A stretch of 43,041 nt of DNA from an uncultured Bacilli bacterium (GTDB lineage: Bacteria > Bacillota_I > Bacilli_A > RF39 > UBA660), in contig CALVII010000004.1 in NCBI GenBank assembly GCA_944329465.1, positions 1 through 43,041 on the forward strand. Direction: 5' to 3'. Shown here in pieces: positions 36,575 through 37,297 of this stretch. How positions within the stretch are numbered: position 1 is the stretch's first letter; each line of letters starts with the position of its first letter. The position numbers were made by a program, and so were the translations under genes. The notes under the pieces are model-generated. The model was not told the DNA's origin, ran no database searches, and saw nothing but the letters and a program-made list of their open reading frames with translations.

Positions 36575-36660
36575 GCATGGGTGGTGGAATGGTAGACACG
36601 CTACTTTGAGGTGGTAGTGAGGATTTCCTTGTGTGGGTTCAAGTCCCATCTCATGCACCA
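36575..36660 (+). tRNA. tRNA-Leu (anticodon GAG)
   Basis: 86 nt. Acceptor GCATGGG pairs with CTCATGC (one wobble) and CCA is encoded. The anticodon arm is CTACT-TTGAGGT-GGTAG with anticodon GAG (codons CUC/CUU). A long variable arm as in class II tRNAs and a T-loop GGTTCAAGTCC are present. Confidence 0.95.
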
Positions 36661-36673
36661 TTTGGTATTAATG

Positions 36674-36697
36674 AGTCGCTTTTTCGGGCGGCTTTTA
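36674..36697 (+). terminator. Terminator after tRNA-Leu
   Basis: AGTCGC (36674-36679) pairs with GCGGCT (36688-36693), one T-G wobble, followed by TTTT. Confidence 0.75.
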
Positions 36698-36700
36698 ATT

Positions 36701-36729
36701 TTGACAAGTGATGTTGAGGGTGATATAAT
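36701..36729 (+). promoter_or_regulatory. Full-consensus extended promoter
   Basis: TTGACA (36701-36706), 17 nt, TATAAT (36724-36729) with extended TGA: all consensus elements are present. It drives a 34-codon ORF and is among the strongest promoters in the window. Confidence 0.9.
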
Positions 36730-36753
36730 ACAGTCCCATCAGGGGGAATTATT

Positions 36754-36858
36754 ATGAATTTTGATATAAATCAAATAAATAGTATTATATTCTTCTTACA
36801 AAATATAAAGAAATTATTTACTATTATAGTAAAAAGTACCATTTTACATTTTCGATAG
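36754..36858 (+). CDS. Small ORF (34 aa) behind a consensus promoter
   Basis: MNFDINQINSIIFFLQNIKK continues into LFTIIVKSTILHFR. AGGGGGAA lies eight bases upstream of the ATG, and a perfect promoter starts transcription about 18 nt before it. The peptide is hydrophobic and amphipathic with a basic end, a size and character seen in type I toxin peptides and small membrane peptides; neither is proven. The hairpin GGTGTT/AACACA (about 36871-36894) may end the transcript. A candidate structured RNA follows on the same strand. Confidence 0.45.
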   Translation: MNFDINQINSIIFFLQNIKKLFTIIVKSTILHFR

Positions 36859-36909
36859 TTTTTCAAGCAAGGTGTTTACAAATTTTAACACAGCATTTTA
36901 TTAAAGATA

Positions 36910-36939
36910 TTGACACAAATTATTAAAGAATGATATTAT
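36910..36939 (+). promoter_or_regulatory. Promoter of the candidate structured RNA
   Basis: TTGACA (36910-36915), 18 nt, TATTAT (36934-36939). Start is expected near 36946. Confidence 0.7.
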
Positions 36940-36945
36940 GTAGTT

Positions 36946-37222
36946 GCTTAATAGGATGGCGTATTTAATTACTTGCAGTTCTATAAATTAAGTTTTTATG
37001 TTTTTTAAAATTTGATTATAGATAGTAATTAAGATTTCTTTGCTTACCTTATGCGTGGAAGATTAGTATAGGGGAAGAAAGATGCGTATATCAATCAAGC
37101 TATTAAGTAATATGTACATATATGGGATCTTGATACAAAATTATAAGTTGTAACTGTCAGTATAATTTATAATTTACTTTAACCCATCCAAAAGCATGCT
37201 TTATGACAGAAGGCATGTTTTT
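36946..37222 (+). ncRNA. Candidate structured non-coding RNA, about 280 nt
   Basis: No ORF of note. A promoter lies upstream and a strong terminator at the end (CATGCTTT/AAGGCATG, 37194-37218, flanked by AAAAG and TTTTTT). GGATGG (36954-36959) near the 5' end pairs with CCATCC (37184-37189), closing the molecule. Inside, TTAATTACT (36965-36973) pairs perfectly with AGTAATTAA (37024-37032), enclosing TCTATAA/TTATAGA (36980-36986 / 37016-37022), and ATCAAG (37094-37099) pairs with CTTGAT (37129-37134). The size and closed ends resemble a housekeeping RNA such as 6S, but hallmark sequences of 6S, tmRNA, SRP RNA and RNase P were not found. Identity is unknown. Confidence 0.6.
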
Positions 37223-37297
37223 TGGTAATATATTGACTAAATGATTATAAAACATTAAAATAATATTGTAAATAAAAAAAGAATGGAGTTATATGAT

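Follow-up and report, generated by a model that had tools for sequence, protein, structure and literature searches.

What is the structured RNA encoded between the tRNA-Leu gene (36575-36660) and the desulfoferrodoxin gene (dfx; Pfam PF01880 and PF06397) of an uncultured member of the Bacilli? The window, i.e., the whole stretch of 43,041 nucleotides analysed here, holds at this place an RNA of about 280 nt that the initial annotation had listed as structured but unidentified, possibly a diverged 6S RNA or a new class. The comparison with relatives gave a length of 280 nt and returned an RNA that is both conserved and covarying (Table 1).

The promoter and the strong terminator (hairpin plus T run) read from the sequence at the outset were both recovered, as was the lack of coding capacity: no ORF of at least 40 aa was found within 36757-37283. 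In most relatives a −10-like hexamer recurs 6 nt upstream of P1a, and the terminator hairpin with its T run closes all 65 aligned copies. The simple consensus terminator scan left the 37194 terminator unflagged and raised its sole flag at 36673-36694. Folding of the region gave −70 kcal/mol (z −3.72), with one of 200 shuffles as good. These signals show an RNA with a predicted promoter and a predicted terminator of its own. Further upstream, the window stretch 36701-36858 carries a perfect promoter (TTGACA-17-TATAAT with TG, 12 of 12), then a GGGGG run and, 3′ of both, a 34-codon ORF (36754-36858); this stretch looks missing from the orthologous loci inspected.

Table 1. Features of the RNA unit, in positions of the window
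Feature	Start	End	Strand	Description	Basis
Promoter	36910	36939	+	TTGACA-18-TATTAT, TG ahead of the second hexamer	motif scan
Whole RNA	36946	37225	+	280 nt, starting at P1a and including the terminator	relatives, alignments
P1a	36946	36954	+	GCUUAAUAG; at or adjoining the predicted first transcribed base; pairs with 37100-37108	P1 pairing table
P1.1, 5′ side	36959	36964	+	closes the variable central domain; partner at about 37082-37087	re-matching test
Central hairpin domain H1	36965	37032	+	stem 36965-36973/37024-37032, inner stem 36980-36986/37016-37022	sequence; inner-stem covariation
Central hairpin H2	37035	37081	+	loop ~GUGGAAG-UUAGUAUA, near-invariant in class A	comparison, consensus fold
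P2a	37094	37099	+	AUCAAG; pairs with 37129-37134; crosses P1	A3 pairing
P1b	37100	37108	+	CUAUUAAGU	P1 pairing table
Palindrome	37110	37121	+	AUAUGUACAUAU; proposed dimerization element	self-complementarity tests
P4a	37122	37126	+	AUGGG; pairs with 37183-37187; crosses P2	A1, re-matching, consensus fold
P2b	37129	37134	+	CUUGAU	A1, A3 pairing
P3 hairpin	37138	37175	+	15 bp, 37138-37152/37161-37175	A1, A3 pairing
Kissing loop, side 1	37154	37159	+	CUGUCA, in the P3 loop	loop complementarity
P4b	37183	37187	+	CCCAU	re-matching, consensus fold
Terminator	37194	37225	+	hairpin (37194-37218) and T run	A3 alignment, consensus fold
Kissing loop, side 2	37204	37209	+	UGACAG, in the terminator loop	loop complementarity

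Rfam 15 at the gathering threshold returned two tRNAs only for the window, and with the limit relaxed to E 10 no family matched the window copy of the RNA. The 6S model (RF00013) has no match at the locus, and the genome carries a separate 6S gene at G000:C3:9710-9885 (52.7 bits, above the cut-off); the reading as a diverged 6S RNA was thus wrong. The models of tmRNA (RF00023), RNase P type B (RF00011) and small SRP RNA (RF00169) also found nothing at the locus, and each of the three is encoded elsewhere in all 14 genomes with the RNA, so the annotation had correctly set these classes and 6S aside as the locus's identity. OLE RNA (RF01071) was rejected for the locus in the same way, its matches being at other loci in two genomes (G395 and G319); an OLE gene is present in 2 of the 20 genomes searched, and both also carry the RNA described here. 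One of the OLE matches (L132, G319:C21:19395-19721) is short, with 327 nt, 101.6 bits and about half the model length, and is perhaps a reduced RF39-type OLE variant like that of PMC11332333. The raiA model (RF03072) has no match at the locus, the sole ground on which raiA was rejected; its genome-wide search gave 0/58 without any working control match, so this absence is uninformative. Some sub-threshold Rfam matches were taken as chance: MIR5643, mir-963, SNORD28, SNORD96, isrJ, Histone3 and emrB-Lactobacillus, all beyond the RNA; mir-184 in L095 (E 1.9), which overlaps the RNA on the opposite strand; and RT-6 in L010 (21.4 bits vs 46.7, E 1.8), on the same strand in one copy only. A ribosomal S15 leader (RF00114) was seen at L041 996-1124, with 40.5 bits, barely above its gathering score. 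Among the open-licence papers searched, no description of the RNA came up.

The RNA was traced among relatives by several searches. A blastn search with a 331-base query matched 23 of 59 relatives, and a core-derived pattern was found in 41 stretches of genome contigs, mostly titled as uncultured Bacilli MAGs; these stretches served to make a 42-sequence core alignment (A1) and covariance model R1. Of the order's 385 genomes, 29 were identified with R1; they represent 15 of 117 genera and belong without exception to the window's family; as the searches of large sets were strictly filtered, these counts are lower bounds. Locus L134 contributes a sixteenth genus, which brings the RNA to at least 16 genera of one family. 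A second covariance model, R2, matched 21 of 39 genomes of the window's genus and 3 of the 12 best genomes of that genus; given this patchy presence, close relatives can do without the RNA. Several of the 18 genus members without a match are more than 90% complete. Across the family, R2 matched 5/41 genomes, the genus of L134 being the one added. The class search gave 6/395 matching genomes, those in G000, G086 and G063 being real and L104-L106 proving non-members on inspection, and the phylum search gave 3/392, with G000 and G063 real and G861/L133 a non-member; in both searches, no match outside the family survived inspection. A mobile or phage origin was rejected, since there were zero matches among 50,697 phage and 72,556 plasmid records and zero matches of the core pattern in viral contigs.

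The fold was evaluated on two alignments. In A1, a MAFFT alignment unfitted to any structure, 87.8% of the cells of the whole structure are paired, against 39.0-46.6% when the structure is slid by one to three columns, and both sides have changed in 23 pairs (shuffles, 14.9, sd 1.9). A3 was prepared from 65 matches in 63 sources, after removal of the truncated L015, of duplicate loci and of weak covariance model matches (≤33 bits) lying on the opposite strand over or beside the terminator. Fitted to P2, P3 and the terminator helix T, with the kissing loop excluded from fitting, its 65 distinct sequences gave 95.2% paired cells (27.8-51.8% when slid) and both-side changes in 34 of 37 pairs (19.9, sd 2.0, in shuffles); in all these comparisons the controls leave shared ancestry in, and some alignments lean on the model that built them. 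Compensatory changes among relatives, which the initial annotation had named as a check together with the Rfam search, are therefore present.

At the 5′ end, P1 pairs at all nine positions in 56 of the 61 scored copies and has one mismatch in the other five, with 18 variants; the 5 excluded entries of 66 are L016, at a contig end, and L086, L088, L089 and L098, for which the automatic pick failed (P1a is visible by eye in the first three of these four). P2 flanks the 3′ strand of P1, hence the two helices cross. In A3, 98.2% of the P2 cells are paired and five of its six pairs have changed on both sides, while all 15 pairs of P3 have done so in some sequence. P4 begins within the P2 loop and ends past P2, enclosing P3. 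Own pairing of P4 scored 12.8 against 11.4 for re-matched regions (sd 0.24, max 12.33 of 300), a modest signal under whole-region re-matching, and includes the exchanges AUGAGA/UCUCAU, GUGGG/CCCAC, CAAGUA/UACUUG and GCGAC/GUCGC; the helix was not found in L097 and L101. The CCATCC side of the GGATGG/CCATCC closing pair initially proposed for the whole RNA pairs instead within P4 (ATGGG/CCCAT): orthologues have GAATAG, GGAAAA or GAAATAG opposite CCATCC, and RNAalifold passes over this pair, which we rejected.

The kissing loop between P3 and the terminator, absent from every model, has 99.5% of its cells paired in A3, with four of six pairs changed on both sides. At least six contiguous loop-loop pairs can be formed in 64 of 65 copies, the exception being L090 with only 4, and compensated versions include CUAUCA/UGAUAG, CUGACA/UGUCAG, CUGAC/GUCAG and AUGUCGA/UCGACAU.

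The central domain is the variable part of the molecule. Over 57 distinct region pairs, P1.1, which closes it, scored 13.9 for own pairing and 11.9 when re-matched (sd 0.34, max 13.07 of 300). In class A the domain consists of two hairpins with compensatory changes, among them those of the H1 inner stem (consensus-fold columns 42-46/97-101), and includes a 6-bp stem at 37047-37052/37068-37073. The local stems of the earlier fold (9-bp, nested 7-bp and 6-bp) are present, the nested and 6-bp ones recurring in the consensus fold of 16 sequences; the earlier fold lacked the palindrome, the kissing loop and the helices that cross. Together, these comparisons show a predicted architecture with a P1-P2 pseudoknot by the 5′ end, P4 crossing P2 around P3, a pairing of the P3 and terminator loops, and a variable central domain hanging off P1.1. 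We are almost certain that the RNA class and its fold are right.

Between P1 and P4, at a nearly fixed place, the alignments show a palindrome of about 12 nt. Its sequence is free: there are 34 distinct versions among 66 sequences, self-complementary through the centre, although, the sequences being related, these are not 34 independent events. The centres comprise 14 different tetranucleotides, and both innermost positions pair in 33/33 even-length palindromes, against a mean of 11.8 and a maximum of 19 for re-matched halves, which were not given the free choice of centre described next. Pairing at the best centre, picked among 7 positions with an odd/even flag, is 5.78 of 6, versus 4.64 (sd 0.09, max 4.86 of 500) for shuffles given the same freedom. 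Of 47 distinct segments, 74% contain a strict Watson-Crick palindrome of at least 8, versus 22.5% of shuffled ones, and the calculated self-duplex has a mean of −13.4 kcal/mol, versus −4.4 for shuffled letters and about 0 for the hairpin. In two versions, those of L030 and L099, the central U can be taken as unpaired. Locus L134, found after these statistics, has GUAUGCGCAUAC at the palindrome position and CUGUCAG/CUGACAG as loops.

The palindrome could instead form a small intramolecular hairpin in a monomeric RNA, and most versions do allow a 4-bp stem capped by a 4-nt loop. Against this, the best calculated hairpin among the 34 versions folded reaches −0.3 kcal/mol, and the would-be loop, which a hairpin does not need to be self-complementary, is so in every one of the even-length versions; we consider this alternative improbable. 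Form kept while sequence is free, down to the centre, points to intermolecular self-pairing, and neither a hairpin nor a protein-binding site would predict it. As in homodimeric RNAs, the self-complementary segment has been kept through compensatory change, and the RNA probably dimerizes through it. The window's genome carries two copies with different palindromes (calculated self-pairing −11.8 and −15.1 kcal/mol, cross-pairing −9.2 kcal/mol), a difference by which the RNAs might keep their dimers separate; the two tandem copies of L041, unlike this pair, have one common palindrome.

Part of this architecture recalls an orphan Rfam motif, PGK RNA (RF03040), which occurs in gut metagenomes with phosphoglycerate kinase genes and reportedly originates from a 2017 survey. 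All 92 positions of its model align in three distant members of our family, all of genus g26: L097 (37.5 bits, E 0.09), L101 (41.0 bits, E 0.019) and L103 (34.0 bits, E 0.41), with E values for 4227 families and no score reaching the gathering cut-off of 50.8. The model matched neither the window copy, up to E 10, nor any of the other 13 loci scanned, and a viral scan for RF03040 members found none. In all three loci the PGK helices coincide in register with P2 and P3: the outer helix corresponds to P2 and the second hairpin to P3, its loop CUGAUAA matching the kissing-loop side, and the PGK consensus has ACAAUUGU at the palindrome position. The model differs from our RNA in being typed Cis-reg and in having no P1a, central domain, P4b, terminator or kissing partner. 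The three loci lie between whiA and a U32 peptidase gene (genes read by eye); L097 and L101 belong to the RNA family by R1 (E 1e-9 and 8e-8) and L103 by R2; all carry P1 and the palindrome, and L097 and L101 also the kissing loop and the terminator. From the in-register match, together with this family membership, we regard PGK RNA as a likely fragment of the class described here, although the scores stay under the formal membership threshold. The proposal of a new class thus holds for the window copy, which matches no Rfam family, and is qualified by these three sub-threshold matches. If PGK RNA is a fragment, a curated gene-control family needs to be redrawn as an independent trans-acting RNA.

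The gene neighbourhoods bear on where the RNA acts. Class A orthologues (L003-L013) adjoin desulfoferrodoxin and several also tRNA-Leu, as read by eye, and the window's genome has another copy, diverged from the first, beside acpS (G000:C20:17596-17723; acpS PF01648). Copies often occur two per genome, with different central domains, and neighbours vary by clade, as does orientation: Pfam identifies desulfoferrodoxin and acpS among them, and rpsL, whiA and others were read by eye, with the acpS-side copies converging with acpS. In L041 (4866-5553), and likewise in L048, two tandem copies about 390 bp apart have a promoter and a terminator each; those of L041 lie upstream of rpsL, and the tandem copies differ in their central domains, with the same palindrome. 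The unrelated neighbourhoods, the varying orientation, the self-contained tandem copies and the terminator before the downstream gene suggest action in trans. Coherently with these observations, we lean towards a separately transcribed structured non-coding RNA of about 250-390 nt that acts in trans as a homodimeric scaffold. Two copies would pair via the palindrome in a symmetric homodimer with about 12 intermolecular base pairs, and helices would stack on both sides of the intermolecular duplex. The kissing loop would anchor the 3′ end in the core, probably protecting it, and the central domains would bear copy-specific sequence. A symmetric homodimer whose two arms vary would best be understood as a scaffold, its partner most likely being a protein; as the job of the RNA, over antisense pairing or catalysis, we give it an even chance.

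The main rival is a trans-acting antisense sRNA, in which the core would be a stabilising scaffold and the loops of the central domain would pair with mRNAs. The variation of this domain between classes, with loops near-invariant in class A, would suit such a role, as would the different central domains of the two copies that many genomes carry, but the best-conserved part is the folded core and not a free seed, and we regard this alternative as rather unlikely. Cis action as a leader or regulator of the gene that follows, in line with the PGK RNA label, is much more doubtful: the Cis-reg typing of RF03040, its in-register match to three distant members of our family and the position of several copies upstream of a same-strand gene (dfx in the window) are countered by the terminator at the end of every aligned copy, by downstream genes that are unrelated, the acpS-side copies even facing the end of a convergent gene, and, in the window, by a promoter-like site (37233-37261, 10 of 12) that separates the RNA from dfx. 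A ribozyme with an active site built by the crossed helices is the least probable, since both ends are apparently set by promoter and terminator and the sequences give no sign of cleavage or substrate, even though crossed helices and invariant bases recall known ribozymes in complexity.

Returning to the homodimeric scaffold, we think it reasonably likely that the RNA represents an undescribed homodimeric class of gut Bacilli, with a palindrome free in sequence but self-complementary, a terminator included in the tertiary fold, and the PGK motif as a fragment. To our knowledge, few natural RNAs function as homodimers, and many palindromes at one fixed place provide a comparative signature of dimerization. 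ROOL and GOLLD are much larger cages, and the window copy has no Rfam match to either. OLE, ROOL and GOLLD all exceed our RNA in size, which at about 280 nt should lend itself to structure determination. ROOL and GOLLD are homo-oligomeric bacterial RNAs with intermolecular kissing loops, and OLE is a complex Bacillota RNA that forms an RNA-only dimer (PMC12286853). OLE is also present in gut bacteria of the RF39 clade (PMC11332333); it differs from our RNA in its length of about 600 nt and its separate gene. The raiA motif, or ModT, is similar for its pseudoknots, own promoter and trans action (about 215 nt, two pseudoknots and a SigA promoter; PMC11706538), but was resolved as a monomer (PMC12286853) and its Rfam model has no match in our RNA. 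Lastly, the HIV-1 dimerization initiation site drives homodimer formation by a palindrome, and compensatory palindrome change restores dimerization there (PMC7357161); that element is viral and its palindrome lies in a hairpin loop, whereas ours lies between two pseudoknot helices, thus the likeness is an analogy only.
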